Below are positions 1,835 through 23,921 of a stretch of DNA of 63,869 nucleotides, in pieces. The position numbers were made by a program, and so were the translations under genes. Each line of letters starts with the position of its first letter. Positions within the stretch are counted from its first letter, which is position 1. Below the pieces are notes generated by a model, which saw only the letters and a list, made by a program, of their open reading frames with translations, made no database searches and was not told the DNA's origin. Source of the DNA: a virus; the IMG/VR virus record IMGVR_UViG_3300027746_000001, positions 1 to 63,869 of that record, one strand, 5' to 3'.

Positions 1835-1918
1835 ATGGGATATTATATCGGCTATAGCGTATTAGCAGCTATTATACTGTATGTTGTATACGATGGAATG
1901 AAAGGGTTTGACGAGTGA
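1835..1918 (+). CDS. 27-residue single-pass membrane peptide
   Basis: The frame encodes 27 residues beginning MGYYIGYSVLAAIILYVVYD, a hydrophobic helix long enough to cross a membrane, followed by a short charged tail. It starts 7 bases after the MazG-like gene and its stop overlaps the GTG of the next gene in the same GTGA style as other junctions here. Function unknown. Confidence 0.55.
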   Translation: MGYYIGYSVLAAIILYVVYDGMKGFDE

Positions 1919-3500: not shown

Positions 3501-3502
3501 TT

Positions 3503-3757: not shown

Positions 3758-5612
3758 ACCTCCGTCAGTTTTACAGGCAATCAACATTGCCACAAGGGTG
3801 AGAGCAGAGGCTGAAAAGGATGACATCAATGGGGTCATTTATGCTGCTCAGTTTATACTGACACATTTGACAGATTCTCATAAAAAACAGGTTACACTGG
3901 ACGAAAAGGTGGCTAGGCAGACTGTGTTAAACTTCGTTCAACACCTATTGAGGCACGATCAATTTGAGGCAGCGGCAACGATTCTATGGGGGGCTGGAGT
4001 TTACGACTGGAGGCCACAGAGTGCAGCGGATACTTGGAGGTGCTTGTTTGAGCATGACAAGTTATTAGTTCAGGGGGCAGGTGCAATGGGAAAGACGTTC
4101 AATGCCGCTGCGTGGTTCCTGTTGGATTGGATGCGAGATCCAGAGTATACTTGTATCAAAGTTGTTTCGTTGACTGAAGCACACGCGCAGAGAAACGTAT
4201 TTGCTGCAATCAAAAACTTCTACCGCACTGCATTGGTGCGTCCAGAGTACGAAGGTAGCGAAGACTTAGTGAAGTCGATTCAAGCCAATGACGATGACAA
4301 GAATGGCATCCATCTAGTTGCCGTTCCGAAAGGTGATAGCGGAACTGGTACGCTCCGTGGGTTTCACCCAAGTCCAAGGCAAAAGCCAGATCCTAAGTGG
4401 GGGCAAATGAGTAGGACACACGTTGTGCTGGACGAAGCTGAAGAGGTTCCCGCTGGGGTGTGGGAAGGTTTACAGAACATCCTGTCCGCTGCTGACACAA
4501 AGGATTCCAAGGGACGCATCAAGATTTTCGGAGCATCGAACCCGAAAGACAGGAATAGTGAATTCGGAAAAAGGTGTGAACCTGTGCGGGGTTGGCAGAG
4601 TGTGGACTGTGAAGAGGATTTTGAGTGGGAAAGTAGGGAGGGGTGGCATATCTTGAGGCTCGATGCAGCAAGGTGCGAGAACGTGACAAATAAGGAGATT
4701 GTTTTCCCCGGCTTCCAATCGTACGAGGGCTACATGGCATACGAAAGTAAAGGACGCACTGCCGAATACTACACAATGGCCCGTGGATTCTTCCCGCAGG
4801 AAGGTATCTCGATGGCAATCATCACTCCTGCCATGATGGACAACTCAATGGGTAGCTTGCGGTTTATTGGCCCTGTAGTGCCTCTAGCAGCGTTCGATTT
4901 GGCATTGGAGGGGCGAGATCAAGTTGTCTGCTCTTTCGGGCGATACGGACTCTGTGATGGGTGGACTCCACGGGATGGACAATTTAGAGAATTCAAAAAG
5001 CCAAAGACGTGCTTACAACTGGATTCGCAAATGCAGTTCCCGAAATTGGCAACACTAGAGCAGACCGCAGAGATCATCCGCTTTGCAAAGGAGATGAGGA
5101 TCGGCGCGAATTGGCTATGTGTTGACCGAACTGGAAACGGAGCAGGAATCCACGATGCGTTGAGATCACTTTACGGAAGCGAAGTCATGGGGGTCAATTA
5201 TTCATGGGCTAGTTCAGAAACCCATATCTTGGGAGATGACACACAACGCGCAAACGAATTGTATTCAGGAGTTGTTACAGAACTGATTTTCGGACTTGCT
5301 AAATACCTAGAGTTTGAGTATCTAAAAATATCACCTAGTTTCCGTATCGAGGAGTTGGTTCGTCAAGCAACTTCTCGCAGGTACAAGCAGCAGGGACAGG
5401 GGTTGGTGAGAGTCGAGAGCAAAGGGGACTTCGTAAAGCGGACTCGCCAAAATAGTCCTGACGCACTCGATTCCCTGTCCCTGCTGGTCTATTTGATGAG
5501 GCAACGAGGTGGAGTTGTTGCCACGATGACCGAACCAAAACCAGAAAAGTTTGTTTTCCAGAAAAAACACACTGGAATTGAAAGTTATGAATTCGTTGAT
5601 TTCAGCAATTGA
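3750..5612 (+). CDS. terL: Terminase large subunit
   Basis: A protein of 620 residues with both expected domains. The ATPase half has GAGAMGKTF (Walker A, about residue 110) and VVLDEAEEVP (Walker B plus catalytic Glu, about residue 222). The RNase-H-like nuclease half has acidic positions in FDLALEGRD (about 381), CVDRTGNGAG (about 456) and NSPDALDSL (about 567). It cuts concatemeric DNA and pumps it into the prohead through the portal. A ~90-residue N-terminal extension precedes Walker A. A promoter-like element overlaps its stop codon. Confidence 0.93.
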   Translation: MNKPPSVLQAINIATRVRAEAEKDDINGVIYAAQFILTHLTDSHKKQVTLDEKVARQTVLNFVQHLLRHDQFEAAATILWGAGVYDWRPQSAADTWRCLFEHDKLLVQGAGAMGKTFNAAAWFLLDWMRDPEYTCIKVVSLTEAHAQRNVFAAIKNFYRTALVRPEYEGSEDLVKSIQANDDDKNGIHLVAVPKGDSGTGTLRGFHPSPRQKPDPKWGQMSRTHVVLDEAEEVPAGVWEGLQNILSAADTKDSKGRIKIFGASNPKDRNSEFGKRCEPVRGWQSVDCEEDFEWESREGWHILRLDAARCENVTNKEIVFPGFQSYEGYMAYESKGRTAEYYTMARGFFPQEGISMAIITPAMMDNSMGSLRFIGPVVPLAAFDLALEGRDQVVCSFGRYGLCDGWTPRDGQFREFKKPKTCLQLDSQMQFPKLATLEQTAEIIRFAKEMRIGANWLCVDRTGNGAGIHDALRSLYGSEVMGVNYSWASSETHILGDDTQRANELYSGVVTELIFGLAKYLEFEYLKISPSFRIEELVRQATSRRYKQQGQGLVRVESKGDFVKRTRQNSPDALDSLSLLVYLMRQRGGVVATMTEPKPEKFVFQKKHTGIESYEFVDFSN

Positions 5613-5638
5613 CTTGCTAAATTTAACAAAATTGATAA
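5609..5638 (+). promoter_or_regulatory. Putative sigma70-type promoter
   Basis: TTGACT (5609-5614) and TGATAA (5633-5638) are separated by 18 bases. The -35 hexamer includes the stop codon of terL. It precedes the 5695 gene and the portal in an 82-base gap, the first sizeable gap in this operon. Confidence 0.4.
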
Positions 5639-5694
5639 ATAAAACAAGTTTTTCCTTGCAAACCTTACAAAACTGACGTAAAACTCAAAAATTC

Positions 5695-6276
5695 ATGGCA
5701 AAACCGATAATTGGAATGATCCCGCCGGGGGGTTGGCATTACTACGATGGTGATGCAAAGCTCACTGGTCATAGCTATGACAACTTGATTGAGGTTGTCA
5801 CGAATTTTCGTGCCGAAAACCATTTGCCAGTTGGTGACGTGGAGGGTGATGTCAATTCGTACATCTGTAGCAAGAACCCCAACTTCTGTCACGGAGTTGA
5901 TATGGTAGTTGTAACATCTGTTAATACACCTAGTCAAAAGACAGAGTTGCTAAATGACGTTACGATTTGGGCTAAAAATGTTATCAATTCTTCAAAAGAA
6001 GTAGCACTTGTATCCAGTGAGCTAGCAGAGCAACGCGCAAAGATCTGTCTTGCTTGCAAACAGAACGTGCAATGGAAAAGCGGTTGTGGTGCTTGCGTGA
6101 AAGCAACGGAAAGGTTAAGTGCCAGCATTAGACAGGCTAAAGAGACAAAAACATCCAAGGCACTAGGTGGTTGTTTGCTTCTTCGTCACGATAATAAATC
6201 CGCAGTTTTTATGTCCAGAGACAGCATTTCCCCGTCAGACAATTTGCCAGCCGATTGTTGGCTAAATCTCAAATAA
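5695..6276 (+). CDS. Hypothetical protein with cysteine knuckle
   Basis: A 193-residue protein between terminase and portal. It begins MAKPIIGMIPPGGWHYYDG, and in the middle has KICLACKQN and GCGACVKA, a CxxC...CxxC arrangement likely to bind zinc, with two more cysteines later (GGCLL, ADCWL). Its position suggests a packaging or head-vertex accessory, but I recognise no named family. Confidence 0.75.
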   Translation: MAKPIIGMIPPGGWHYYDGDAKLTGHSYDNLIEVVTNFRAENHLPVGDVEGDVNSYICSKNPNFCHGVDMVVVTSVNTPSQKTELLNDVTIWAKNVINSSKEVALVSSELAEQRAKICLACKQNVQWKSGCGACVKATERLSASIRQAKETKTSKALGGCLLLRHDNKSAVFMSRDSISPSDNLPADCWLNLK

Positions 6277-6277
6277 T

Positions 6278-8689
6278 ATGGCAGATACAACCAAACCAAT
6301 TCCAGCAGAAATCACAAACGTCTACGCATCGAAAGCTGCGCGGATTATGAAAACCTCTGACAAGCAGAGGATTTCTGAATTGGAAATCGTTGATGGAAAT
6401 GACACTGGTGACGTTGTAAATCCTGACACATTACAGGTTAAACGGACTTTTAAAGACTGCCAGCAAGCGCATTCTGCATATCGTAGACTCAAGCAACAGA
6501 ATGTTGAGCGCAATCGCAAAAACCAATTGATTCAAAAGAAGCTAAATAATGAACCTCCATACAGTGCCAAAAAACTGGAAAGCATGGGTCAGAATTGGCG
6601 CAGTAATCGTCCAACTGGGTTTTTGTCTACGATGGTTAGTCGTTTACAACCACCATTTAAACAAGTAATCGAGCAATCACCAACGCTTACCTATTCCAAA
6701 TTTCCAATGGAGGGTGTTAGCGAGGAGCAAAAGACAAAAGTGTTCCGTGAAGAGATCACCAAATGCATCAGAGGATGGAAGGGTCACGATGACCTAGTTG
6801 CACAGGTTACGCATGAGAATACCACATTTGGTTTTTGTGGAGTATGTTGGGATGACGTTCGTGATTGGAAACCTGAGTTCCTTCGTCAAGATTATACTTT
6901 CTTCAGCATCGAGACTCCACAAGAAGCCGATTCAACCCCGATTTGGGGAAGGAAGCGTCGATACCAGATTGCGGAATTGCTTCCAGTGCTGGAACAACCG
7001 AGACTTTCTGTGCTTGCAGGTTGGAATATCAACAATCTGATTAAGGCAATCAATAACGCAACACCCGCTGGGAGAACGCTTGATTCTGACGATGATGCTA
7101 GACGCTACGAAGACTGGATGCGTGAAGGATCCTATGGAGCAAGCTACGAGAATGACGCGAAATATGTCGAACTTGGTGAGTTGTTGATCCGTGAACCCAC
7201 TGGTAAGATTTCGCGTTATCTTTTTGATGATAAAAGCGGAGATGAAATCTGCACACAATTGGATAGATACAACAGGATGTCGGACACAATTGCGCTATTC
7301 TCTGTTGAGATTGGCAGTGGCGCATTGATGTCATCCCGTGGTGCAGGACGTGACTTGTATAACACGCATATTGCTATCGATAAGGCTCGTAACCTTATTG
7401 TCGATAACTCATATTTGCGCGGGATGCTATTACTGAAAAAAGGCCCAACCGCTAAAACAGGCATTCCTCCGCTTCAAGTAATGCATCCCGTAGCATATGT
7501 GGCTGAAGGATATGACGTAGTTCAGTCTGCAATTCCTGCTGACGTGGAAGATTTCATCAAACTCGATCAATTCATGTCTGGATTAGCTGAGATTCAGATG
7601 GGAACATTCCTTCCATCATCCGTTATGAACATCACGGGTGGAGATAAGACAGCATCCGAGGTAAACCGCATTGCTGCCGTTGAAAATCAGATCCGCGAAG
7701 GCATCCTGATGCGTTGGGTTAAACAATATTCCAAGGCAGTCGAACGTATGCAACGTGGAATCTGTCATCCTGAGCATATTAAAGCCGCATCTGAGCTAAA
7801 AACGCAGATTGATTTCGCTCGCCTTCAGAATCCTAACGCAATGTGGGCAAGAAAAGAGGTTGTAGAGGCATTTGAACAGGCGCAATCTGAGATTCCATCG
7901 TTCCTAGTGCCATTTGAGATCCCTAGACACCTCGATGAAGAGGCAGTTTCGTGCGTTTTAGCCATGTTGGAGCGTAATTTACCTCCTAGCGACATTTTGC
8001 TGATGGCATTCTCTCCAGCAGAGGAACTTTTACCTCAAACCGAGGGTCAGGACGCTGCAATTCTTGATCTTCTGATCCAACGCTACACTGGAAACCCAAA
8101 TATCAACCAAGATGAGCTAATGAAACTTGATTGGAGTCGAAAAGTGGGTGAATCTATCGCTAACCAAGTCATCCTTCCGAAAGATCAGGTTGAGGCAGTG
8201 GCAATTGAGGCTACACGTCAGCAGATTATTGAGTTGCAGAGCATCATCTCAGGTGAGGACATTCCAGTCTCTCCACGGGACAATGATATTGTTCACATCC
8301 AGACCATCATGGAGAAGCTATTCCCGCTCATTGCTAACGCTCCAGCAGGGTCGATGCCTCCAGAGATGATTAAACCCCTACAATCGGCAGTACAGCACTT
8401 TATCGGTCACGTCCAGAACGCTGAAGCGAAGGGTGCAGATAAAAAGCAGATTGCCGAATACAAAAAGGCAGTTTCCGAGGCAATTACGCACCTCACAGCA
8501 GGACAAGCACCAATTTCAGAAGGTGATTTATTTCCAGCAGCAGCAGGTGGTGGTGGTGGAGGAGGTGGACGTAGACCATCGACTGCACAGGCCACCGCAA
8601 TGGGAGAAGCAGTTGGAACACAAAATCCCTCACAAAATAACGCAGTCAACCAAGTTGCTGCACCACCAAAACCAGTAACAGCAGGATAA
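6278..8689 (+). CDS. Portal (head-tail connector) protein
   Basis: A protein of 803 residues immediately after the terminase block, the size expected for podovirus-type portals with a long C-terminal barrel. The motif ITGGDKTASEVNRIAAVENQ at about 450-470 matches the conserved helix of portals of this class. Twelve copies should form the DNA entry ring. The C-terminus (about 755-800) is Ala/Gly-rich with an uninterrupted run of eight glycines, probably a flexible tail inside the head. Assignment rests on order, length and this motif. Confidence 0.85.
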   Translation: MADTTKPIPAEITNVYASKAARIMKTSDKQRISELEIVDGNDTGDVVNPDTLQVKRTFKDCQQAHSAYRRLKQQNVERNRKNQLIQKKLNNEPPYSAKKLESMGQNWRSNRPTGFLSTMVSRLQPPFKQVIEQSPTLTYSKFPMEGVSEEQKTKVFREEITKCIRGWKGHDDLVAQVTHENTTFGFCGVCWDDVRDWKPEFLRQDYTFFSIETPQEADSTPIWGRKRRYQIAELLPVLEQPRLSVLAGWNINNLIKAINNATPAGRTLDSDDDARRYEDWMREGSYGASYENDAKYVELGELLIREPTGKISRYLFDDKSGDEICTQLDRYNRMSDTIALFSVEIGSGALMSSRGAGRDLYNTHIAIDKARNLIVDNSYLRGMLLLKKGPTAKTGIPPLQVMHPVAYVAEGYDVVQSAIPADVEDFIKLDQFMSGLAEIQMGTFLPSSVMNITGGDKTASEVNRIAAVENQIREGILMRWVKQYSKAVERMQRGICHPEHIKAASELKTQIDFARLQNPNAMWARKEVVEAFEQAQSEIPSFLVPFEIPRHLDEEAVSCVLAMLERNLPPSDILLMAFSPAEELLPQTEGQDAAILDLLIQRYTGNPNINQDELMKLDWSRKVGESIANQVILPKDQVEAVAIEATRQQIIELQSIISGEDIPVSPRDNDIVHIQTIMEKLFPLIANAPAGSMPPEMIKPLQSAVQHFIGHVQNAEAKGADKKQIAEYKKAVSEAITHLTAGQAPISEGDLFPAAAGGGGGGGGRRPSTAQATAMGEAVGTQNPSQNNAVNQVAAPPKPVTAG

Positions 8690-8696
8690 TAATATT

Positions 8697-9113
8697 ATGC
8701 CAGACCGAGCCAAAATCATCAGCGAACTTGCTTCAAAAGCAAAAATGGATCCATCGTCCGCAACCACCAAAAAAGACATCAAAGCATTGGGAGAAATTTC
8801 AGAACCATCTGGATATGGAATGAAACGAGCAGGGAAATCAATGAGTTCTGGTTCTATTTCTCCTAAATTATTAAAATCTGAACCTCTTCCAACTGCAAAA
8901 GATAAGGAAGAAGAAGTTGAAGACTTGCTTACCGAGTCCGAAAAAGAAATGGAAAAGAAAACAGAAAATGACGCAAAAAAAGAAGCTAATTATGCTCGTA
9001 TTGAAAACCAAAAAATGAGCGACCAAGGCATTGTAAATTTGGATCAACTTGTTGATGCTGGTAAAAAAGTCTACCGCAAGGTTAAATCCAAAGTTAAGTC
9101 GATGATGGAATAA
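8697..9113 (+). CDS. Charged hypothetical protein, head region
   Basis: A 138-residue Lys/Glu-rich protein, predicted mostly helical or disordered. Position between portal and scaffold suggests a head-assembly accessory. No family recognised. Preceded by an AT-rich leader ending TATTATG without a Shine-Dalgarno sequence. Confidence 0.7.
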   Translation: MPDRAKIISELASKAKMDPSSATTKKDIKALGEISEPSGYGMKRAGKSMSSGSISPKLLKSEPLPTAKDKEEEVEDLLTESEKEMEKKTENDAKKEANYARIENQKMSDQGIVNLDQLVDAGKKVYRKVKSKVKSMME

Positions 9114-9132
9114 AATATATTAATAAATAAAT

Positions 9133-9372
9133 ATGAAATGGGAAGAATCTGACGCATCACGTCTGCGGGACTACGACAAAAAAACAGGGAGTCGATTGCG
9201 TTTATATTTACGCAGCCGAATTCCTTTCATAACGGAATGTTCCGTCGAAGGAGTTGCAATGCAAGCCATGTTGAAGCAAGGTTTTGAGATGGCATTGCGA
9301 GAAATTGAAGATTGCGTAAACTCTTCAAATGACAACGCTGATCCCAGCGCAGGAAACTTCACGTCCATGTGA
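9133..9372 (+). CDS. Hypothetical protein (79 aa)
   Basis: Begins MKWEESDASRLRDYDKKTG, basic then amphipathic, with no recognised domain. A low-complexity Asn/Ser segment precedes the C-terminus. It lies in the head gene cluster, with AT-rich gaps on both sides. Confidence 0.65.
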   Translation: MKWEESDASRLRDYDKKTGSRLRLYLRSRIPFITECSVEGVAMQAMLKQGFEMALREIEDCVNSSNDNADPSAGNFTSM

Positions 9373-9405
9373 CGGAAAAATCACCTAGTATTTACGTCAA
9401 ATTAT

Positions 9406-9657
9406 ATGGCAGAAATCAAACCAAGATTCAGCAAAACAATCACTAACAAGGCAACTGGTCGAACGAGGACAGTTGAATACGGGCAAGCGGGAAAAGCCAA
9501 GGATGGAAAGGATCGTATTCGACCCGGCACATCGAAAGGTGACGCATATTGCGCCAGAAGCGCAAACATTAAAGGTGATTGGAAAGATGATCCGAATTCA
9601 CCAAATAATTTAAGCAGGAAAAAATGGAAGTGCCGCGGAGAGAAGTCAATGAAGTAA
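9406..9657 (+). CDS. Small conserved phage protein with DPNSPNNLSRKKWKCRG motif
   Basis: An 83-residue basic protein. The stretch GTSKGDAYCARSANI followed by DPNSPNNLSRKKWKCRG is a pattern I associate with small head-region proteins of unknown function in other tailed phages, including marine phages. It has two conserved cysteines. It precedes the scaffold gene. Confidence 0.75.
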   Translation: MAEIKPRFSKTITNKATGRTRTVEYGQAGKAKDGKDRIRPGTSKGDAYCARSANIKGDWKDDPNSPNNLSRKKWKCRGEKSMK

Positions 9658-9680
9658 ATAAACAACCAATTAATAAATCT

Positions 9681-10934
9681 ATGGAAAACGAAAACGAAAA
9701 AGCAGAATCCAGTGTTACTGGATACGGAAACCCATCGTTGGACGCAGATCCGATTGATGAATCAACTGAAAATCAAATCGATGCACTACTTGACGCTGCA
9801 CTAAGCGGAGTTGAGCCAGTGTACGCAGAGGAACCTGTCGAAACGGAAGAAATTGAACCAATCGAGGAACCAGAGCAAGAGGTTGCTGAATCCACGGAAC
9901 CTACAGAGACTACAGAAGCACCTGTAACTCCAGAAGTCGAACTGGATCCAGAAATTGCCTCAATCGAGCAACCCCGCAATCTCTCTGAGGTTAATCGCTC
10001 CAACTGGAGAAAGTTGCAAGAGACAGCATCCACATACAAAAAACAAGCGGAGGAAACAGAGCAACTACGGCAACGTGTTGTTGAAATGGAATCACGGCAG
10101 CAGGAATTCAAAGCACCTGATGATTATGATGAATTAAAGAAATTTCGTGCAATCTTTGACATTAAGAATGATCCTGAATTCCAGTCGAAATACAATCAAC
10201 CTATTCAGTCTGCTAAAGAGAACATCTACAATATCCTTCGTAAAAACGGAGCGAGTGAAGACGTTATTGAATCTATTGAAAAAGCAGGTGGGCCTGATGC
10301 AGTTGATCAGGGTTGGTGGAAGAACAATGCAATTGACAAGTTGCCACTTACTGATTCGGAACGTCTTAAACGCAACCTTGTTGATGTTGTTGACCTGAAA
10401 GAGAAGCAAGAACAAGAGATTGAAAATGCCGCACAAAATGCGGAGCAGATTCTTGAGCAGCGTGAACAAGAAAAGGGTAAATGGTATCACCAAGAGGTGG
10501 AACAGATCGATAGGCATATTGATGATCTGACGAAAGAACTTCCTTGGGCTAGGTACGCAGAAGCACCAAAAGATGCAACTCCAGAAAAGCTACAGCAAGT
10601 TCAAAGGCACAACGCGCAGGTGCAATCCCTTGCTGAGAAGTTTAACTCTGCTCTGTGGCCTACCAACGCTCAAGAAAGGGCTAATGTGGCAGCAGCAGCA
10701 GTTTTCTCACACGTTCTAACAGAGCAATTGCGTATCGAGCAAGAAGGCAAGTCCAAATACATGGCAGAATTGAAGTCTTTGCGAGAAGAGAACAACAAGC
10801 TAAAAGGGGCTGGTAAAATGCCAAAACAGACCATCACTGGTCAGCATAGCATTAAATCCAGTCTAAATGACCGATTGAAGATGAATTCGATGGATGCCAT
10901 TGATCTTGGACTTGATGAAGCACTAGGTGGTTAA
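9681..10934 (+). CDS. Capsid scaffolding protein (probable)
   Basis: A 417-residue acidic, coiled-coil protein. An earlier in-frame ATG at 9624 lies inside the preceding gene, so 9681 is chosen. The first ~110 residues are Glu/Thr/Pro-rich and disordered; long heptad-like helices follow (for example EKQEQEIENAAQNAEQILEQ). This composition, and the place between portal and capsid genes, is typical of podovirus scaffolds that guide prohead assembly and then leave. No enzymatic motif is seen. The C-terminus (SIKSSLNDRLKMNSMDAID) may be the capsid-contacting end. Confidence 0.75.
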   Translation: MENENEKAESSVTGYGNPSLDADPIDESTENQIDALLDAALSGVEPVYAEEPVETEEIEPIEEPEQEVAESTEPTETTEAPVTPEVELDPEIASIEQPRNLSEVNRSNWRKLQETASTYKKQAEETEQLRQRVVEMESRQQEFKAPDDYDELKKFRAIFDIKNDPEFQSKYNQPIQSAKENIYNILRKNGASEDVIESIEKAGGPDAVDQGWWKNNAIDKLPLTDSERLKRNLVDVVDLKEKQEQEIENAAQNAEQILEQREQEKGKWYHQEVEQIDRHIDDLTKELPWARYAEAPKDATPEKLQQVQRHNAQVQSLAEKFNSALWPTNAQERANVAAAAVFSHVLTEQLRIEQEGKSKYMAELKSLREENNKLKGAGKMPKQTITGQHSIKSSLNDRLKMNSMDAIDLGLDEALGG

Positions 10935-10943
10935 AGTATACTA

Positions 10944-10971
10944 AAGTTATACACAAAAGCATATATAACTT
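10944..10971. other. AT-rich inverted repeat
   Basis: AAGTTATA (10944-10951) and TATAACTT (10964-10971) form a perfect 8-base inverted repeat with a 12-base loop in the gap between scaffold and glycosyltransferase genes. It could be an operator or weak hairpin. No T-tract follows. Confidence 0.35.
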
Positions 10972-10997
10972 AATATAGTTAAAGCCACATTATATCT

Positions 10998-11987
10998 ATG
11001 GAACCAAAAGTTTCACCTGACGAGCGCATCACAATGAATGCATTGGATTCTTTCGATCCATTTGCAAGACAAGGACAAGTTCAGCGTCCACAACCACAAC
11101 CAGAAATAAATAAAGAACAACGAGATTTTTCACATCTCAACGAACCTATGATCAAACTAGACCGAAAACCTAAACGCAGACGCAAGCCAGTTCCAAAGGT
11201 GCTGGAAAAGATGGAATTACCAACTCCAGAAGAAATTAAACAACCGATTATCGAAGATGTTGCCGAAAAAGTACAGTTTAACGATACTCTACAGTCAAAT
11301 ATTGTAGAATCCCGAACCAATGAGGGGTTGCCATCGTATCGTGCAGAGTTTGCAGGAAGGGACATTTTCGTTGGTTTTTCGGCTAATAAAGCTACAAATC
11401 CCATCACTACGCTCGCTTTAATCAACATTGCGCTTGATTTCGGACGGGATAAGATCCGATTTGACGTTTCTAGCGACGAAAATAATTTTTATAAGTCAAG
11501 AAATGACCTTGCGGAGAAATTCCTAGCCACGGACGCAAAATGGTTGCTGTTGTTGGACAATAATATCATCCCATCCATCGGTAGACCGCAGTGGGCAAAG
11601 GCAACAATTGGTGCTGCTCGAAATATCCACGATTCGCACCTACAGAAGCACATTGTACATCGTCTAATTGGCGCAGGGAAGTCTCTTGTTGGTGCAGCGT
11701 ACTTTGCTAACTTGGATGACGCTTCAATCGACTGTTCAAAAACTGATCTTGGCAAAAAAGCACGGGTCTGCACCGATTCTGTAGAGGCAGTTGACTGGGT
11801 GGGTAGTGGATGCTTGTTAATCCATCGTCGGGTGTTTCAGGATATCAAGAAAAAGTTCCCTGACATCAAAAATGGGCCATTTTACCCTGACGATATTTCA
11901 TTCTGCAAAAAGGCAATGGAAGCAGGTCATCAACCACACATTGATTTGGGTGTTCCAGTATTTAACGTGGGAATTAAGGCATACTAA
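10998..11987 (+). CDS. Glycosyltransferase (GT-A fold) with disordered N-terminus
   Basis: A 329-residue protein. Residues 1-115 are Pro/Lys/Glu-rich and disordered. From about 120 a GT-A-like domain follows: AKWLLLLDNN near 181-190 stands at the DxD-type metal/nucleotide-sugar site, VDWVGSGCLLIHRRVF near 264-279 matches the acceptor-side motif of GT2-like enzymes, and PDDISFCKKAMEAGH resembles the usual EDxxFc motif. Role: transfer of a sugar, acceptor unknown. It is embedded in the head operon and coupled (TAATG) to a second glycosyltransferase, which points to modification of virion proteins. Confidence 0.78.
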   Translation: MEPKVSPDERITMNALDSFDPFARQGQVQRPQPQPEINKEQRDFSHLNEPMIKLDRKPKRRRKPVPKVLEKMELPTPEEIKQPIIEDVAEKVQFNDTLQSNIVESRTNEGLPSYRAEFAGRDIFVGFSANKATNPITTLALINIALDFGRDKIRFDVSSDENNFYKSRNDLAEKFLATDAKWLLLLDNNIIPSIGRPQWAKATIGAARNIHDSHLQKHIVHRLIGAGKSLVGAAYFANLDDASIDCSKTDLGKKARVCTDSVEAVDWVGSGCLLIHRRVFQDIKKKFPDIKNGPFYPDDISFCKKAMEAGHQPHIDLGVPVFNVGIKAY

Positions 11988-12580
11988 TGAAACCAAAAAT
12001 CTATTCATATTACGAGAGTGTGCAACTGCGTCCACAGGACGAACAATTTGCTTGTGCAAACATCTGGAAATCGACTTGGGAAGCTCAAGGATGGGAACCA
12101 GTGATGCTAAATCGCTCACACGCGCAGGGGAGTCCGCTTCACCTAAAGCTAATGACAAAATTAACTCGACTCGCTCCAGTTCTCCCCAACGAGTTGCAAA
12201 ATAATTTTGCTTTCATTTGCGCTCGTTTTTCGCGTTGGTGTGCGCTTCATGCTGCTGGTGGTGGATGGATGAGTGATTATGATGTTGCTAATATTTCATT
12301 TACTCCGCAACTCGCTGAGGAGGTAGAGAAGACTGGATCATTGCTTCTTTTGTCTGGGCAACCATCTTATATTTTTCACACAACTAAAGAGATGTGCGCT
12401 CACGTCATAAACACAATACTTTCCAATGATCTTCATGTGGGTGGAGTGTTAAAAAACGAAGACGATATCTTTAACGAATCTGGAAAACTCGATAGAATTG
12501 AAGCGAATTTAATTCACGCAAAAATGGAGAATAATATTCCGAAATCTCAATACCTAAAAAATATTTTAAATATAATTTGA
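11987..12580 (+). CDS. Glycosyltransferase, GT32-like (DxD sugar-binding)
   Basis: A 197-residue protein. RFSRWCALHAAGGGWMSDYD near residues 78-97 is the hallmark of family-32-type transferases: a helix (sR...L...GG.Y/W) leading into a D-x-D metal site (SDYDV). The N-terminal strand (PKIYSYYES) fits the start of a GT-A Rossmann-like fold. It is shorter than most GT32 enzymes and may be a minimal version. The start overlaps the stop of the upstream glycosyltransferase by one base. Confidence 0.78.
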   Translation: MKPKIYSYYESVQLRPQDEQFACANIWKSTWEAQGWEPVMLNRSHAQGSPLHLKLMTKLTRLAPVLPNELQNNFAFICARFSRWCALHAAGGGWMSDYDVANISFTPQLAEEVEKTGSLLLLSGQPSYIFHTTKEMCAHVINTILSNDLHVGGVLKNEDDIFNESGKLDRIEANLIHAKMENNIPKSQYLKNILNII

Positions 12581-12603
12581 CAATGTTTTAGTTTTGATAT
12601 AAA
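12577..12603 (+). promoter_or_regulatory. Putative promoter for capsid operon
   Basis: TTGACA (12577-12582, overlapping the TGA of the GT32-like gene) and TATAAA (12598-12603) are separated by 15 bases. The hexamers are good, but the spacing is short. It would drive the structured leader, the FGE-fold gene and the major capsid gene. Confidence 0.45.
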
Positions 12604-12834
12604 AAGGCAATAACTCGACGTGCCAGATTCGTTATTCTGGTGACTCCGCAGAAGTCAAAAAATCTGCACTCAGGCCGAACAACGCCCAACGTGCCGGGGC
12701 AACAAAACCAAGAAACAAATCGTTAAGAACCGATAGCGGGTCTTATCGTCTTGAATGTTGCCCGAAAGATTTTCTTACGGGAGTTCAAGCAGAACAAACC
12801 CAAACAAACAATTAATTAGAAAACAAAACAAAAC
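12604..12834 (+). ncRNA. Structured leader or small RNA candidate
   Basis: About 230 non-coding bases with several hairpins: CCAGA/TCTGG (12623-12640), GACT/AGTC (12642-12656), GCCC/GGGC (12684-12700), CGATA/TATCG (12731-12748) and an 8-pair stem CCCG-a-AAGA / TCTT-a-CGGG with a TTT loop (12761-12781). CGTGCC occurs at two places. No frame of useful length is present. It ends at an A-rich stretch before the ATG at 12835. I do not recognise a known RNA family. Confidence 0.45.
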
Positions 12835-13818
12835 ATGAAATTTATTCCTAAGTTTCTTTCAGTTGCGCTTTCGATTTTTACCATTGCAACCAGTAACGCT
12901 GATTATATTACAGACAACGTGACTGTCACAGGTGGTACATTCGGAAACGGAACGTCATTCAAAGGTCAAGCAGTTAGTACCTTTAAAATTGGCACTAAAG
13001 AAATCACATTTGCTGATTGGCAAACTGTCCGCACTTATGCTGCGGCTAATGGTTTTGACATCGGAAGTGCTGGTTCTGGAAGTGGATCAACAAATCCTGT
13101 GGAAAAAGTAAGTTGGTATGATGCGGTAAAATGGTGTAATGCAGCAAGTCTTCTTAATAGCAAGACTCCTGTTTACACTAATAGCCTTAAAGTATCATCG
13201 ATTACTCGCAACAGTACAACAGCTACAGTTAATACATTATTGCCACACAATCGAGTGACTGGTGATTCTGTAACCATTTCTGGAGCAGTTCAGTCCTCTT
13301 ACAATATTACAGCAAACGTGACTGTTGTAAATGCAGTAACATTTACTTACACTGTTGCTGGAAGTCCTGTAAGTCCTGCTACGGGAACCATTGTTGCAAC
13401 TGGAACATACAAATCAGGTGAAGAAGTTCCAGCAGTAAACGCTTCCGCTAACGGATATCGTCTCCCTACTGAAAAAGAATGGGAATGGGCAGCAATCGGT
13501 GGAACATCGGTGAATACCCCATTGCCATTTGCTTTTGCTGGAAGCAATAATCCAAGTGGAGTTTGCTGGTCACAAACAAATTCTCCGACAAGCACTCAGC
13601 CTGTTGCAACCAAAACCGCAAACCAATTGTCTATTTATGACATGAGTGGAAACGTCTTTGAATGGTGCTTTGACGATATCACTGGCGTTGTTGGTCGTAG
13701 GATTCGTGGTGGTGGATGGACTGTTAATGCTGACAGTTGCCGCATTGACAATCGTGGATATCCAGCACCTCAACGCCAAGAAAACGGATTTGGTCTTCGT
13801 ATCACAACAAACCCTTAA
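12835..13818 (+). CDS. Secreted FGE/SUMF1-fold (C-type-lectin-like) protein with inserted beta module
   Basis: A 327-residue protein. Residues 1-22 look like a signal peptide (charged MKFIPK, hydrophobic core, cleavage near SNA-D). The rest follows the formylglycine-generating-enzyme/sulfatase-modifying fold: EVSW-like KVSWYDAVKWCNA, YRLPTEKEWEWAA, DMSGNVFEWCFDD, RGGGW and a final GFGLRI. The catalytic cysteine pair of true FGE is not evident, so a binding role is likelier. Residues ~117-192 interrupt the fold with a beta-rich insert (VTGDSVTISGA, FTYTV) that also occurs in the tail protein at 30562. It sits directly upstream of the capsid gene. Confidence 0.8.
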   Translation: MKFIPKFLSVALSIFTIATSNADYITDNVTVTGGTFGNGTSFKGQAVSTFKIGTKEITFADWQTVRTYAAANGFDIGSAGSGSGSTNPVEKVSWYDAVKWCNAASLLNSKTPVYTNSLKVSSITRNSTTATVNTLLPHNRVTGDSVTISGAVQSSYNITANVTVVNAVTFTYTVAGSPVSPATGTIVATGTYKSGEEVPAVNASANGYRLPTEKEWEWAAIGGTSVNTPLPFAFAGSNNPSGVCWSQTNSPTSTQPVATKTANQLSIYDMSGNVFEWCFDDITGVVGRRIRGGGWTVNADSCRIDNRGYPAPQRQENGFGLRITTNP

Positions 13819-13874
13819 AACAAAAACAAAACAAATTAACAAAAACTTAAAACTTAAATTAGAAAAATAATATT

Positions 13875-15059
13875 ATGTCAGAATGTATCTCACTCGCAGC
13901 AATTCAAAATTTTGCATCTAAGGATGTAAATCGTATCATCGGACAAATCGGACGAGTTCTCGCCCGCAAGTCCCCTTACATCAACTCCATCGATGGTGGA
14001 ACGCTCCCTAACGTCTCTGACGTTGTGCGTAGTGTTGTGGAGGAAATGGCAGTACCTGCCGCTTCTCTCGCCTCTCCTACCTTCGTTAACGACACCACCC
14101 TCTGCGGTGTTGGAGCAACCCCTGACGTTGTTGGCTCGACTGAGTATCAGTTCCAACTCCAGACCCTTCGTGGTGCTGGCCCACGTGTTTGCGTAAAGCA
14201 AGCCCGTACCGCATTCAAAGGTTCTTACCTCCAAGCTCAAGTATCGCTTGAAAAGACGATTCTCCAGCTTATCAACGCTGATATTCGTTACCAGTATCTC
14301 CTTCAGTCTGGCATTAAATATGTTGTGGATTCCACTGCTACTTTTTCTGCTAACTTGACTGGTGATATGCAGCAGATCAACACCTTGTTTGCTAATAAGG
14401 CTCCTGATGCTCCTATGAACTTCAAGACCCTCTACAAACTCGGTACGTTCCTGCGCGAAGAGATGCTTGCTGAACCATTCGCTACCTCCGAGGGTGAATT
14501 CTTCCAAGTTATCGCTTCCGCTGACCAGATCGAGAATTTCCGCAACGATGCGGACGTTAAAGAGGATCTGATTGGTCTTACGACTGGTTCGTTCAAACTT
14601 GGTGAGACTGCCATCTCTGGCTACTCCTTCCAAGGGTATCGCGGTTTCGCATTCGGTATTGATCAACAACCCCTCCGCGCTACCGCGAATGTTGCTGGTG
14701 TTCTTACCCTTGTTAACCCAATCGTCTCGACTGCCGTAACGAATGGTTTCGCTCAACGACGTAACCCAGCATGGGTTGCTGCCAATTACGAAGTTATGTT
14801 TGTTATCGCTGGTAATGCGTTCAAGCGTCTCGTACCTGAAAGCTACGTTGGAGAGGGAACCTTCCGTTTCGCTCCTCAACTTGCTATGGGTGAACTGGAG
14901 TGGACATACTTCCGCGACAACGATTGTAACTTGTATGGTGACTTCGGTCAGCACATCTACCAAATCCAACGTGCTATTCAGCCAATTCGTCCACAGAATG
15001 TTGTGGCGATTGTCTACAAGCGTTGCCAAGATGATGTGAATCCCGCACCTTGCGTGTAA
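13875..15059 (+). CDS. Major capsid protein
   Basis: A 394-residue protein beginning MSECISLAAIQNFASKDVNR. Assigned from position (after scaffold, before tail genes), length, and codon use: unlike its neighbours it uses a narrow, C-rich set of codons (CTC, ATC, AAC, CGT/CGC), as expected for the most abundant protein. That bias also leaves the opposite strand open for 379 codons. HK97-type folding is assumed, not shown by a motif. A perfect 11-pair hairpin follows its stop. Confidence 0.82.
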   Translation: MSECISLAAIQNFASKDVNRIIGQIGRVLARKSPYINSIDGGTLPNVSDVVRSVVEEMAVPAASLASPTFVNDTTLCGVGATPDVVGSTEYQFQLQTLRGAGPRVCVKQARTAFKGSYLQAQVSLEKTILQLINADIRYQYLLQSGIKYVVDSTATFSANLTGDMQQINTLFANKAPDAPMNFKTLYKLGTFLREEMLAEPFATSEGEFFQVIASADQIENFRNDADVKEDLIGLTTGSFKLGETAISGYSFQGYRGFAFGIDQQPLRATANVAGVLTLVNPIVSTAVTNGFAQRRNPAWVAANYEVMFVIAGNAFKRLVPESYVGEGTFRFAPQLAMGELEWTYFRDNDCNLYGDFGQHIYQIQRAIQPIRPQNVVAIVYKRCQDDVNPAPCV

Positions 15060-15073
15060 GTTGAATTGATATC

Positions 15074-15105
15074 GGTGGCAGAGTTAATTAGTTGACTCTG
15101 CCACC
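15074..15105 (+). terminator. Hairpin after major capsid gene
   Basis: GGTGGCAGAGT (15074-15084) pairs perfectly with ACTCTGCCACC (15095-15105) across a 10-base loop. No T-tract follows, so it may be a leaky terminator or an mRNA 3'-end stabiliser that isolates the highly expressed capsid message. Confidence 0.6.
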
Positions 15106-15128
15106 TCATCAGTTTAACATTCACACAT

Positions 15129-15392
15129 ATGGACGATATCCCTTCAATTCTCGACACAGCAAAATTCCGTCATTTGGTGCTTGATGGGGTTTCTAATATC
15201 GCTAACTCTATTCAAGGATTTCAAATCCCAGAATATGACGAACTCGCATTGACTTACTATGGTTCGACGAACAATATCGCAACTGTAGCTTACAGCAAAG
15301 CATCGGTTGTTGTTGCAACATTGACATTGACATATTCCGTGCAGCCTCCCACTGCAAATGACGCAAATTTAGTAATGGTAAGCATAGCTTAA
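15129..15392 (+). CDS. Small tail/fibre-associated hypothetical protein
   Basis: An 87-residue protein. The segment [20 protein letters not shown] followed by a strand-rich VVATLTLTY is a pattern I associate with small phage proteins next to collagen-like or tail genes. Function unknown; a structural adaptor is plausible from position immediately upstream of the collagen-like fibre. Confidence 0.65.
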
Positions 15393-15393
15393 T

Positions 15394-17210
<1,817 letters not shown>

Positions 17211-17214
<4 letters not shown>

Positions 17215-18839
17215 TTTTAACTAATTCCAATGCGGCAAATATTGGATTAAGTGTTGTTAGATGTATTGCATCTGCAACAGCATCGTTCCGTCAGTTTATG
17301 GTTTATGCCGATACAACAATTTCAGCGGTAATTTCTGGGACAATCGGACTTATTAAAAATGGGACTGGTGCGCTTACGCTTAGTGGAAATAATACCTATA
17401 CTGGAGCAACAATTATCAATGCCGGCACTTTAAAAAATGGAAGTGCAACAGCTTTTAGTACTGGAAGTGCTTTAACTGTTAATGGTGGAATTTTTGATCT
17501 CAATGGTTTCAATGCAAACGTGGCATCAATGGGAGTTGGGAATGCTTCTGGAACGATCACCAACTCGGTCTCAGGATCGGGTACAAATACGATCACGATC
17601 TTGAATTACAACGCTGCGGTTGCCTCACTCATTACAGATGGTTCCACGGCAAAGACGGCAGTGACCATTAACAATAATGGTGGTGCTTACGCTATTTCAA
17701 ATGCGAATAACACGTTTTCAGGAGGGTTTACGATTGCCTATGGTGGTTCTGGTGGTGGATCGCGCCTATATCAGGGTTCAATAACAAGCACTGTTGTTGG
17801 AGGGATTCTAACAAAAAGCAATATAGGAATAGGAACGCTTACCATAGGAGCCAATGGAAGCACGTCCAATGCTCAATTGATGCTTAACTCAGGTTCAATT
17901 TACAATAATATCATTGTTAATGCAGCACAATATGCAGATGGTGGTGCAGCCGCATTCCGTCTTGATGGAACTGGAATACAATTTTATGGAACAATGACGG
18001 CAGGTTCCTCTAATATTAATTTATCAAGCCAATTTACAGGTTCGGCAACTTTAAATGGTCAACTAACAGGAACGAATGGGCTATTATTAAAAACTCCAGC
18101 AGGGGCATCGGCTACATTTACTCTAACTTTATTAAATCCAACAAATAACTATTTAGGAAATACAACAATTGCAACGAGAACAACAATAGTTATTAGCGGT
18201 GCAGGACAACTCGGATCGGGTAATTATTCTGGGAGTATCGCAAATACAGGATCTTTCATCTACTCCAGCACTGCCAACCAAATTCTCTCTGGCACAATTA
18301 CGGGAACTGGTCAATGGATAAAAAACGCAACTAGCACACTCACTCTCTCTGGCACATTCTCGGGAACAACAGGGCCAATTACCGTAAACGCTGGAACGCT
18401 TGCTCTGGGAGCCAATCAAACGCTACCAGTAATAGCTGGAGCTGGAAACATTGATATTGGAATTTACAATTTAGTAATTGCTAATGGCACAAACAATACT
18501 TTCTCTGGCGTTATTAGCGGATCTGGCACATTTAGGAAAACATCAAGTGGAATTCAGACACTTTCGGGTAATCTCACATACACGGGATCAACTGAAATCA
18601 GCAACGGAACATTACAAATTATTAGGGCATTCGGGTCAATAACCCCAACAGCATCATTTGGAATATCTACGTTGGTTGTTTCCTTTACTGGGACTTTTCC
18701 ATCGGGAATAACAGACTTTCGTTTTTTTGCAGGAACAACAATTAACTCTTACGCATCCGTAACCCTAACTGGTGTTCCAGTTGGAACAACAGCAATCTAT
18801 AACTCCGCAAACTCGACACTTTCAGTCATAGTTCCATGA
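17211..18839 (+). CDS. Autotransporter-associated beta-strand-repeat protein, copy 1
   Basis: A 542-residue protein. After an N-terminal module ([17 protein letters not shown]) come repeats of the type [20 protein letters not shown] followed by INAGTL, the autotransporter-associated beta-strand repeat, which folds as a beta-solenoid. Such repeats are frequent in surface proteins of Verrucomicrobia and Planctomycetes. No signal peptide or autotransporter barrel is present, so this is probably a virion appendage. Its N-terminal ~60 residues and C-terminal ~80 residues match the protein at 19093, showing a tandem duplication. TGA/ATG overlaps on both sides. Confidence 0.82.
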
Positions 18840-19048
18840 TAATTTCTCCTAACGAAAATGGTTGGTCTTACGATGATTCTACAGGCAATTGGAAATTGGT
18901 TTATGCCGACAAGTTAATTGTGTTGTATGAGCAGACAGACCAATCAATCGCAACTCAAAGCGTCCTTTTCGTAGGAACTCAAGAAGAATGTGATAACCAA
19001 ATATTGAACCTTGGATTGCATTTTCCAGATACGGAGGAAAAGGAATGA
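18836..19048 (+). CDS. Hypothetical protein (70 aa) between duplicated genes
   Basis: [20 protein letters not shown]...: a small acidic protein of unknown function. It is coupled by ATGA to copy 1 of the beta-repeat gene. The equivalent position after copy 2 retains only a trace (MINIGNG), so this gene was lost there or gained here. Confidence 0.65.
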   Translation: MIISPNENGWSYDDSTGNWKLVYADKLIVLYEQTDQSIATQSVLFVGTQEECDNQILNLGLHFPDTEEKE

Positions 19049-19092
19049 ACGACAACCCAACTCTTACAGGAATAATTGGGATCCAAATGTAA
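19045..19092 (+). pseudogene. 15-codon relic of the holin-like gene
   Basis: The frame reads MNDNPTLTGIIGIQM and stops. It starts with the same sequence context (GGAATGAACGACAAC) as the membrane-protein gene at 20217 (MNDNATNH...). It is best explained as the truncated end of a duplicated block ABR gene plus start of the following gene. Confidence 0.55.
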
Positions 19093-20199
19093 ATGAAATT
19101 AACTGATTCTAATGCGGCAAATGTTGGAGCAAATGTTGTTAGATGTATCGCATCTGCAACAGCATCGTTCCGTCAGTTTATGGTTTATGCCGATACAACA
19201 ATTTCGTTGGTAATATCTGGGGCAATCGGTCTAATTAAAAATGGATCTGGAACTCTCACCCTCACCGCAGCAAATACCTACACAGGAGGCACTACAGTCA
19301 ATGCTGGAACGCTTCAAATAGGAAACGGAACGAATAATACTGCTAGGGTTTTGGGAACCACAACCTTGAGCGGAGGCAACATTGCATACAGTCTAAATGC
19401 CAACAACTTTGCTGTAAATGGAGCCATTACCCTTACCTCAACGGCAAGTTTAACAAAACTTGGATCGCTCCAGATTAACTTACAAACTGGAACTCTAAAT
19501 GGCGGAGGGCAGACTTTAAATATCAATGCGACTGGTGTAATTTATTTCAACGGGACGGCAGGAACCAGTCTTGGTCAAATAAATATCCTAAATGGGGGTG
19601 TTGGGCAAGACGGCACGGGAGGATTGCCGCTACGAAATGCCGAAATTAGTATTGCCAACGGAGCGCAATTTAGAACCTATACCAGTCCGACGATCAACAA
19701 TAATATCACTCTCAATGGGGGTGCTGGGCCAAATGGGAGTGGCGCACTTTGGAATGAGTCGGTGGTTGCCGCGCATACGCCAATTTATATTGGAATAATC
19801 ACTTTAGCTACTGGGACAAACTCAAGTTTTGGAAATACTACATCTGGTTTTACGATAACTGGACAAATAACTGGTTCGGGATCATTTACAAAAATTGGAA
19901 CTGGAACGCTTAGAACATTTGGAATTAATAACAACTATACTGGGTCAACGACAATCAGCGCAGGAACATTACAAGTTCAGAAAGCCTCATTTGGGGCAAT
20001 CACGCCAACAGTATACTATACTTCTAATACACTTTCAGCTTCTTTTAGCGGAACATTCCCATCTGGGACAACAAATTTCCGAATATTCCAAGGCACAACA
20101 ACTAATGTATACGCTGCGGTGGCTTTATCGGGAACTCCAGCGGGATCATACGCAACATACAATTCAGCTAACTCAACTATTTCAGTTGTAGTGCCATGA
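19093..20199 (+). CDS. Autotransporter-associated beta-strand-repeat protein, copy 2
   Basis: A 368-residue paralogue of the protein at 17211. Over ~60 bases near 19140-19205 the two genes differ at about one position, while the middle parts differ strongly. Repeats include [16 protein letters not shown] and [11 protein letters not shown]; the C-terminus ends [13 protein letters not shown], against [13 protein letters not shown] in copy 1. Conserved ends with a variable centre suggest an exchangeable exposed solenoid on a fixed anchor and tip. Confidence 0.82.
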
Positions 20200-20216
20200 T
20201 AAACATAGGAAACGGA

Positions 20217-20390
20217 ATGAACGACAACGCAACAAACCACGGATTAATGGGTACGATTATATCGACCACAGGATTTATAGTAAGTATGTTACCAGAAATA
20301 GAAGCGTCAATTAGACTGACGGGTGGAATTATCTCCATTATTGCTGGTGTTCTGACTTGCATCTATATGGTAAAGCAGATTTCAAAATGA
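20217..20390 (+). CDS. Small two-helix membrane protein (holin candidate)
   Basis: Start 20217 is preferred over 20196 because the MNDN start is preserved in the upstream duplicate. The 57 residues hold two hydrophobic segments (GLMGTIISTTGFIVSML and GGIISIIAGVLTCIYMV) joined by an acidic turn and end in a basic tail, a class II holin-like topology. It is first in a lysis cassette. Confidence 0.6.
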   Translation: MNDNATNHGLMGTIISTTGFIVSMLPEIEASIRLTGGIISIIAGVLTCIYMVKQISK

Positions 20391-20617
20391 AACCCAAAAA
20401 ATTTGCTCTTGTAATAATAGTAATATCATTTATCCTATTAGGATCCTCATTCTTAACTGGATGTGTATCAGTTCCAATTCCACCAGCAGGAGATAAGGTT
20501 GGTGAGTTAGGACACATTAAAATTTCACTTAAATTTCAGTACCTCCCAGCAACACAACCCGATATTGATTGGTTTAATCCACTCATACCACAACCCAAAC
20601 TATATAAAGATAAATGA
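20387..20617 (+). CDS. Small lipoprotein (outer-membrane spanin candidate)
   Basis: A 76-residue protein starting at an ATGA overlap. Basic N-terminus, hydrophobic segment and lipobox FLTGC (cleavage before Cys at about residue 25) mark it as a lipoprotein. The mature part is Pro-rich at the start (VPIPPAGDK). Between two membrane-protein genes and an endolysin, an o-spanin or superinfection role is plausible. The lipobox implies a diderm host. Confidence 0.65.
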   Translation: MKPKKFALVIIVISFILLGSSFLTGCVSVPIPPAGDKVGELGHIKISLKFQYLPATQPDIDWFNPLIPQPKLYKDK

Positions 20618-20790
20618 AAATTGTAGATTACATCTTGGCTCGTCTTTCGGAATCGTCAACTTATCGTGGTGCGATTTTTCTTCTTGGTGGACTTGGTATT
20701 GCCGTTGCTCCAGAACAAGCTAATGCGATTGCTGCGGCATCTATGGCTATTGCAGGAGCAATTAACGTGTTCCGAAAAGAAAAGAAATAA
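20614..20790 (+). CDS. Holin-like membrane protein
   Basis: A 58-residue frame between ATGA and TAATG overlaps. It begins MKIVDYILARLSESSTYRGA, followed by a hydrophobic segment, APEQANAIAAA and a second hydrophobic segment ending FRKEKK. This layout (short helix, membrane segment, 'SPEQ' turn, membrane segment, basic end) matches a widespread family of phage holin-like proteins upstream of endolysins. Confidence 0.65.
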   Translation: MKIVDYILARLSESSTYRGAIFLLGGLGIAVAPEQANAIAAASMAIAGAINVFRKEKK

Positions 20791-21308
20791 TGCTTCATAA
20801 GTTAACCGATATCGCACTTCGTGAAGTCGGAGTGCGAGAAATTGGTTCTAACAATTCCGGTAAGCGCATCCGTGAATACCAATCCGCAACTGAGCTTGAT
20901 CCTGCTCCGTGGAGTTGGTGTGCAGCGTTCGTAGATTGGTCAATTCGTGAGTGGTTAAAAGATGATGGTGTTGTGGCATGGCTAGGACTTAAAAACCGCA
21001 CTGCTGACCAATGGAGGCCAACAACAGCACTGGCATATGGTCTAACATCATGGGCAAAGCAAAGACCAAACACCACCAGTATTTACAATGAAAAAGATAG
21101 AGCAGTTGCTGGAGACATTGTTACATTTGATTTTTCGCACGTTGGAATTGTTATTGAAGATTCTATGAGTCATATCGTGACCATCGAGGGAAATACAAAT
21201 GGGTCTGGTACTAGAGACTCTGAAAGTGGTGATGGGGTCTGGAAAAAGATCCGTAAAAAATCACTTATAAAAGATCTTATCCGTATACATCCATCAACAG
21301 CAAAATAA
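20790..21308 (+). CDS. Endolysin with CHAP (NlpC/P60-like) domain
   Basis: A 172-residue protein. WSWCAAFVDW (catalytic Cys near 44), DFSHVGIVIE (His near 115) and IEGNTNGSG (Asn near 135) give the Cys-His-Asn site of CHAP amidase/peptidases, with the usual 'GdIvtF' strand before the His. It should cleave peptidoglycan peptide or amide bonds. There is no signal peptide or SAR helix, so export needs a holin. It starts on the last base of the holin-like gene's stop. Confidence 0.88.
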   Translation: MLHKLTDIALREVGVREIGSNNSGKRIREYQSATELDPAPWSWCAAFVDWSIREWLKDDGVVAWLGLKNRTADQWRPTTALAYGLTSWAKQRPNTTSIYNEKDRAVAGDIVTFDFSHVGIVIEDSMSHIVTIEGNTNGSGTRDSESGDGVWKKIRKKSLIKDLIRIHPSTAK

Positions 21309-22054
21309 TGGCAAATATTACCCATAAGTGGAAGAAAGTCCTAGCAGTTAGTTGTTCACACGCGAAATATTGCGACAAGGAATCATTAGACGCTGTTTTA
21401 AAATTCAAACGTGATTTCAAGCCACATACAACCATTCATTTGGGGGATTTTGTTGATTTAACAAGTCTAATGTCTAGAGCAAAAGGATCCAGTGAAGCGG
21501 AACCACTCATTCCAGACATTGATACAGGTCTAATGCACCTCAAAATGCTAGGTGCAAATGTGGTGTTGTGTGGCAATCACGAAGATCGAGCTTGGAGACT
21601 CCAATCTAGCAACAATGCGGTTGTAGCTCATGCCGCATATAAAATTGTGGAAGCTATTGAAAACTGCTGCAAGAAACTCCGCGCACCACTGCTTCCGTGG
21701 GATGGAGTGTTCCAGATGTACAACCTAGCTGACATTGGATTCCAGCATGGTGTTTTATACAACGAAATGGCTGCTAGAGACACCGCAGAAGCATTCTGCA
21801 ATGGAACTAGGCGCAAGGTTGTCTTTGGGCATACCCACAAGGTTGCAATGCAGTCTGGACGCAATCTTGTTGGTGGAACTGGGTACAATATTGGTTCTCT
21901 GACAAAAAGATCCTCGATGGAATACGCAAAAACCCGCCGAGCTACCCTTGCTTGGACGAATGGATTCCTATGGGGTGAGTATTGCGAAGAACTTAACCAG
22001 TCTTCACTACACATTACATCACGGGAACAAGGACAGATGTGGAGACTGCCATGA
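21308..22054 (+). CDS. Calcineurin-like metallophosphoesterase
   Basis: A 248-residue protein. Motifs of the family appear in order: SCSH near residue 15 (in place of DxH), LGDFVDL near 45 (GDxxD), CGNHEDR near 84 (GNHE) and FGHTH near 172 (GHxH). The first motif lacks its Asp, so one metal site may be altered. Members hydrolyse phosphodiesters or phosphomonoesters of nucleotides, nucleic acids or proteins; the substrate here is unknown. It follows the endolysin with a one-base overlap. Confidence 0.82.
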   Translation: MANITHKWKKVLAVSCSHAKYCDKESLDAVLKFKRDFKPHTTIHLGDFVDLTSLMSRAKGSSEAEPLIPDIDTGLMHLKMLGANVVLCGNHEDRAWRLQSSNNAVVAHAAYKIVEAIENCCKKLRAPLLPWDGVFQMYNLADIGFQHGVLYNEMAARDTAEAFCNGTRRKVVFGHTHKVAMQSGRNLVGGTGYNIGSLTKRSSMEYAKTRRATLAWTNGFLWGEYCEELNQSSLHITSREQGQMWRLP

Positions 22055-22332: not shown

Positions 22333-22344
22333 AATTCTAAAATT

Positions 22345-23898: not shown

Positions 23899-23921
23899 TT
23901 TAACAACAAAAAAATAATAAT

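Follow-up and report, generated by a model that had tools for sequence, protein, structure and literature searches.

Organization of the locus

The stretch of DNA analysed here as a whole (the window) is a viral contig of 63,869 bases. At positions 12835-13818 it carries the gene for a predicted exported protein of the formylglycine-generating enzyme (FGE) type, which stands between a structured RNA leader and the probable major capsid gene. The features of the locus are the following.

11987-12580, plus strand: 197-aa upstream neighbour with invariant GGGW and SDY (DXD-like GGGWMSDYDV), kept in all syntenic relatives
12577-12603, plus strand: sigma-70-like promoter of the capsid transcription unit (TTGACA 12577-12582, 15 nt, TATAAA 12598-12603; exact match)
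12611-12704, plus strand: core of the capsid leader RNA, hairpin P1 and two H-type pseudoknots (covariation; covariance model R1)
12697-12789, plus strand: 3' half of the leader RNA, helices P5 and P6 (covariation)
12790-12834, plus strand: A-rich, unstructured leader tail without a Shine-Dalgarno, containing a TTAGAAAA motif that is found again ahead of the capsid start (sequence)
12829-13856, plus strand: FGE cassette, missing from the closest relative, G023 (genome-to-genome blastn)
12835-13818, plus strand: predicted exported FGE-type protein with a C-type-lectin fold, 327 aa (PF03781 match, PDB relatives TvpA and CarF, 13-member alignment)
12835-12900, plus strand: predicted Sec signal peptide MKFIPKFLSVALSIFTIATSNA
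13177-13404, plus strand: inserted beta module, residues 115-190 (alignment, AF2, Foldseek)
13696-13800, plus strand: C-terminal stretch equivalent to the variable region of diversity-generating retroelement (DGR) lectins; conserved, not hypervariable (entropy)
13875-15059, plus strand: 394-aa probable major capsid protein, whose gene is the distal one on the leader transcript (conservation; weak HK97-fold structural matches)

An earlier, sequence-only reading of this DNA had placed the FGE gene directly before the capsid gene. The gene that it adjoins, at 13875-15059, is the best conserved of its block, with 80-99% identity in relatives, and the Foldseek matches of its product are mostly HK97-fold phage capsids, none of them individually significant and based on a low-confidence model. 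Searches of Pfam, PHROGs and PDB profiles gave no usable match for this 394-aa protein. The placement thus stands, with a neighbour that is itself, from conservation and modelling, the probable major capsid gene.

The 197-aa neighbour has no Pfam match and could, judging by its motifs, be a glycosyltransferase. The 329-aa protein encoded before it (10998-11987) is glycosyltransferase-2-like in one relative (E 0.003), and it may be inactive in the window, since the DDD motif of the family consensus reads DNN there.

The sequence-only reading had also given the FGE gene its own promoter and structured leader. Both elements exist, as TTGACA-15-TATAAA (a promoter scan whose -10 rule requires a final T passes over TATAAA) and as a leader with a fold z of -3.7. 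However, in the closest relatives, which lack FGE, about 265 nt separate the 197-aa gene from the capsid gene, and this stretch is about 90% identical in nucleotides to window positions 12543-12828. Since promoter and leader directly precede the capsid gene in these relatives, we assign them to the probable capsid gene and not to the FGE gene. Of 47 non-redundant loci, 36 (0.5 expected) have TTGAC at an almost constant spacing from the RNA, mostly 37-40 nt ahead of position 12615, and the predicted transcript start therefore coincides approximately with the first nucleotide of the RNA core. No terminator-like site was detected in window 11900-14000.

An exported FGE-type protein without the catalytic cysteines

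The 327-aa protein matches PF03781 (FGE-sulfatase) with 84.3 bits (E 1.5e-23), above the curated Pfam cut-off of 23.3. Its top match in a sequence search against the PDB was TvpA (2y3c, E 7e-29), followed by CarF (5aoh), and Foldseek on the AF2 model gave CarF as the best structural match and TvpA as a further significant one. The predicted FGE/C-type-lectin fold was thereby borne out, with CarF and TvpA as the nearest folds, although the thin alignment left the model poor in its C-terminal half.

The N-terminus reads MKFIPKFLSVALSIFTIATSNA-DYIT, a textbook, cleavable Sec signal peptide, and a Sec-type N-terminus recurs, with differing letters, in 13/13 members of the alignment, none of which has a lipobox Cys. 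We saw no lipobox, autotransporter or type-9 signal that would take the protein beyond the periplasm. Export via Sec is therefore predicted, in agreement with the signal peptide proposed in the sequence-only reading. That reading had further noted the lack of an evident catalytic cysteine pair. In FGE the active-site pair binds copper and corresponds to Cys336/Cys341 in the human enzyme and to Cys272/Cys277 in that of S. coelicolor (PMC4505483); no C-x4-C pair was found anywhere in any of the 13 FGE-type proteins, and going by this absence the phage protein is not an FGE enzyme.

The alignment revealed an extra beta module of about 75 residues between the two halves of the FGE-type fold, which is absent from the L004 homologue, a protein 78% identical elsewhere. 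The insert (residues 115-190) is well predicted, with an AF2 pLDDT of about 80-93, and weakly resembles a phage endosialidase beta-barrel and the E1 FCCH domain (Foldseek, E about 1e-3); used alone as query in a PDB profile search, it gave no match. The same module is present in the 1254-aa protein encoded at 30562-34326 of the window. In TaqVP and the remaining DGR lectins of known structure, an insert likewise separates alpha2 from beta2 (PMC6328139), and our reading of the alignment would put the insert of the phage protein at the equivalent place. Such a module would fit a binding role.

The FGE gene is a recurrent cargo of the probable capsid locus

In the 14.6-kb block 812-15436, the window and G023 are about 92-93% identical, and the cassette 12829-13856 is the only segment of more than 150 nt that G023 lacks (blastn). 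The empty site of G023 is entered at 12828/13857, and 15 A-rich nt are common to both flanks. The FGE gene is found in 9 of the 80 loci retrieved with the probable capsid protein, and its presence and absence require at least 7 changes on the capsid tree. All contigs with the long FGE family (19/19) keep the order 197-aa gene, leader, FGE, capsid, with short and A-rich gaps between FGE and capsid genes. Between leader and capsid gene, FGE was the only ORF of at least 100 aa that was seen. Upstream of the leader, beside the 197-aa gene, many relatives (L035, L038, L050, L071, L091 and others) carry extra ORFs of about 180-330 aa, marking a second cargo site.

On the FGE tree the window is joined with L004 (98/98) and L002 with L003 (100/99). 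On the capsid tree, by contrast, L002 is joined with L004, and a grouping of the window with L004 is rejected (p 0.001). From this conflict we conclude that the gene moved between lineages into the same site, a transfer that the homologous flanks would allow.

The sequence-only reading had taken absence from all close relatives as the mark of recent chance cargo. The gene is indeed absent from the 13/13 nearest relatives on the capsid tree, with none anywhere in the near-complete G023; yet other lineages carry it at precisely this site, which argues for recurrent and not for chance cargo. Near-full-length genomes that lack FGE at this site have none elsewhere either (15/15), so its benefit must be conditional. 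The patchy presence among close relatives and the clean insertion site are those of a moron or accessory cargo gene; in place of a promoter and terminator of its own, the FGE gene uses the promoter and leader of the capsid gene.

Where the gene is present, the protein appears to be maintained for its sequence, since close pairs differ mostly synonymously: the FGE genes of L082 and L089 show 13 non-synonymous against 99 synonymous codon differences, and 4 against 26 in the last 60 residues. The entropy of the C-terminal stretch is 0.97, compared with 1.03 overall. Variation in the last 60 or so residues, which had been suggested as a check, is thus no higher than in the rest of the protein, and this part is under purifying selection. 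A reverse transcriptase (PF00078) was detected in 0/20 phage records, the window included, by a search that did detect its controls. The suggestion that the gene might be a DGR target found no backing in these data.

A family of pseudoknotted RNAs precedes the probable capsid gene

The following pairings make up the leader RNA.

12622-12627/12636-12641, plus strand: hairpin P1, in the core
12642-12645/12653-12656 and 12648-12652/12663-12667, plus strand: pseudoknot 1, in the core
12673-12677/12690-12695 and 12684-12687/12697-12700, plus strand: pseudoknot 2, in the core
12616-12618/12629-12631, plus strand: pairing of the 5' strand with the loop of P1, possibly a third pseudoknot (modest support)
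12699-12703/12757-12761, plus strand: helix P5, perhaps an alternative to pseudoknot 2, with which it overlaps
12750-12755/12784-12789, plus strand: outer helix P6, in the 3' half

Compensatory double-sided changes affect 19 of the 24 pairs of the core, with 144 cells changed on both sides as against 46 in shuffles, and none of 500 shuffles reached the observed value on any of five covariation measures. These shuffles ignore shared ancestry; sliding the partners, a control that accounts for it, destroys the signal. A structure-free covariation scan ranked the core helices at the top, together with the long-range helix P5, whose pair 12701-12759 forms in 47/47 loci with three pair types and has the second-highest covariation score of the leader. 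For the possible third pseudoknot, 7 of 300 shuffles score as high. Nucleotides 12697-12700 are common to P5 and pseudoknot 2, both of which are conserved, and for this reason we infer that the RNA may switch between the two.

The leader was found in 78 of the 80 unique capsid loci with a profile built from a few leaders, and in the remaining two with the covariance model R1, which scores the leader of the window at 90.4 bits. In all loci checked it lies before the capsid gene or before FGE and capsid genes. Of 17 records, 16 have a single strong copy in the genome; in the remaining one, the contig end cuts the leader. When all viral contigs were scanned for the leader pattern alone, 44 stretches were recovered, and the capsid gene adjoins in every one that reaches far enough. 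Three weak covariance matches in bacterial genomes (25-27 bits, all in Verrucomicrobiota) were dismissed as chance, since their stems are broken. Rfam gave no match for the window or the leader even at permissive thresholds, no match to the leader was found in isolated phages, and the literature searched contained no description of a phage capsid-leader RNA. Apparently, the leader represents an undescribed RNA family, and it is a more novel find than the FGE-type protein.

Genome context and host

Regions homologous to window positions 63007 and 812 lie about 230 nt apart in G023, and the window is therefore probably an almost complete genome with an arbitrary opening point. Glycosyltransferase-like ORFs are found at both of its ends (1-811 and 63008-63869). 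The fibre/adhesin region 15436-29793 is largely replaced between the window and G023, whereas the neighbouring head block is 92-93% identical. This region contains a collagen-like ORF (15394-17214), two ORFs with autotransporter-type PATR repeats (17211-18839 and 19093-20199; PF12951, 65.6 bits for the first) and tail-fibre-like ORFs. PATR repeats are unusual outside bacterial autotransporters. The replacement reflects modular swapping of probable host-recognition genes.

The nearest cellular homologues found for the FGE-type protein belong to the Chthoniobacterales (E down to 2e-50), which offers a hint, but only a hint, as to the host. A capsid search of 388 genomes from the phylum of these homologues, run without a positive control, retrieved no provirus, and neither the capsid protein nor the 803-aa protein had a match in isolated phages.

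Discussion

On balance, we favour the view that an RNA family not described so far stands at the start of the capsid mRNAs in a whole group of uncultured phages. With its two, or perhaps three, H-type pseudoknots in tandem, this leader would control or stabilize capsid expression, perhaps as a switch between P5 and pseudoknot 2, and it would be a shared expression platform which has repeatedly received a gene for an exported lectin-fold protein. The capsid gene would have its own transcription unit, consisting of the TTGACA/TATAAA promoter, the pseudoknotted leader from about the first nucleotide, an A-rich start without a Shine-Dalgarno and the capsid ORF. Some lineages have, between leader and capsid ORF, a 1-kb cassette with the gene for a predicted exported, non-catalytic protein of the FGE type. 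There the capsid leader would become the 5'-UTR of the FGE gene, both genes would share one transcript, and the capsid gene would be left with only a short A-rich start region.

Gene anatomy suggests not only this co-transcription but also that the FGE-type protein is abundant. It would be made in quantity during virion assembly and exported via Sec, and its place of action as a binding protein would be the periplasm or the dying cell's surface. An exported ligand-binding fold that is made late and in quantity suggests the masking of a host envelope ligand as the most likely role, which could exclude superinfection or keep the progeny off debris, ligand and benefit both being guesses. We propose, if tentatively, that the protein is an accessory, exported binder, expressed from the capsid transcript, that masks an envelope ligand.

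Two other roles for a binding protein deserve consideration, each of which we regard as a less likely but serious rival. The protein might be virion-associated, either set free when lysis opens the periplasm or captured after its export, and by attaching to heads or fibres it might aid adsorption to glycans. Its fixed placement with the capsid gene is consistent with such a role, as are the glycosyltransferase-like neighbours, the occurrence of the insert module in the 1254-aa protein and its weak matches to endosialidase structures; however, the conserved Sec signal peptide would keep the protein away from assembly in the cytoplasm, and many relatives make virions without it. Alternatively, it might be a periplasmic factor that, in analogy to CarF, acts on the envelope of the host or counteracts an exogenous compound, for instance as a lysis helper or as a protective binder in the infected cell. 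That CarF is the top structural match and the second by sequence speaks for this, and so does the lack of any surface-anchoring signal in the protein, although the cassette contains no linked lysis gene.

Far less credible are the two roles that family resemblance alone would suggest. The PF03781 match might point to a working formylglycine-generating enzyme that activates host or phage sulfatases, but all 13 members lack the C-x4-C pair and no sulfatase gene was seen among the proteins scanned, which makes this highly improbable. Likewise, the closest solved relative, TvpA, is a DGR variable protein, yet with no reverse transcriptase in the 20 records, a conserved C-terminus and a dominance of synonymous changes, we give very little weight to the idea that the phage gene is a DGR target.

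These findings would have three implications. By entering between the capsid gene and its structured leader, cargo genes have a route to capsid-level expression without a promoter of their own. The start of the capsid message offers a strongly covarying, apparently undescribed RNA, with many natural variants. Finally, the phage repertoire gains an exported FGE-fold protein that has neither catalytic site nor retroelement.

Comparison with known systems

The phage protein belongs to the same Pfam family as FGE/SUMF1 and the FGE-domain proteins of Chthoniobacterales (Verrucomicrobiota). It differs from FGE/SUMF1 in lacking the catalytic Cys pair, and from the cellular copies examined in that these are mostly parts of larger proteins. 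With TvpA (Treponema denticola variable protein 1) and other DGR lectins of the FGE subtype it shares the FGE-type lectin fold, and with DGR lectins also the presence of an insert within that fold; unlike TvpA, it has no retroelement, hypervariable C-terminus or lipobox, and it is phage-borne and tied to a capsid leader. CarF has an FGE-type fold as well, whereas the protein described here, likened to CarF by fold and sequence alone, is phage cargo with an inserted beta module.

FGE-fold domains are also encoded by the Microcystis phages LMM01 and MaMV-DC (phrog_18508) and by a second viral group (L112-L122), but their similarity to the protein of the window is partial. The FGE-domain protein of the second group (L010-L012, L112-L122) is a different one: its N-terminal domain is distinct, and its gene is not linked to this capsid gene. 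In two cases that gene lies downstream of a very large one with a weak match to the 2595-aa ORF of the window.

Phage morons and superinfection-exclusion lipoproteins, of which T5 Llp is an example, resemble the FGE gene in being dispensable exported cargo between conserved phage genes. The FGE gene, however, shares the promoter and leader of the capsid gene and brings none, and its product is no lipoprotein. As for the RNA, a pseudoknot in a phage mRNA leader is known from T4 gene 32, to which the capsid leader is comparable in this respect; it differs in having no Rfam match and in presenting tandem, covarying pseudoknots at the very start of a capsid-gene transcript.
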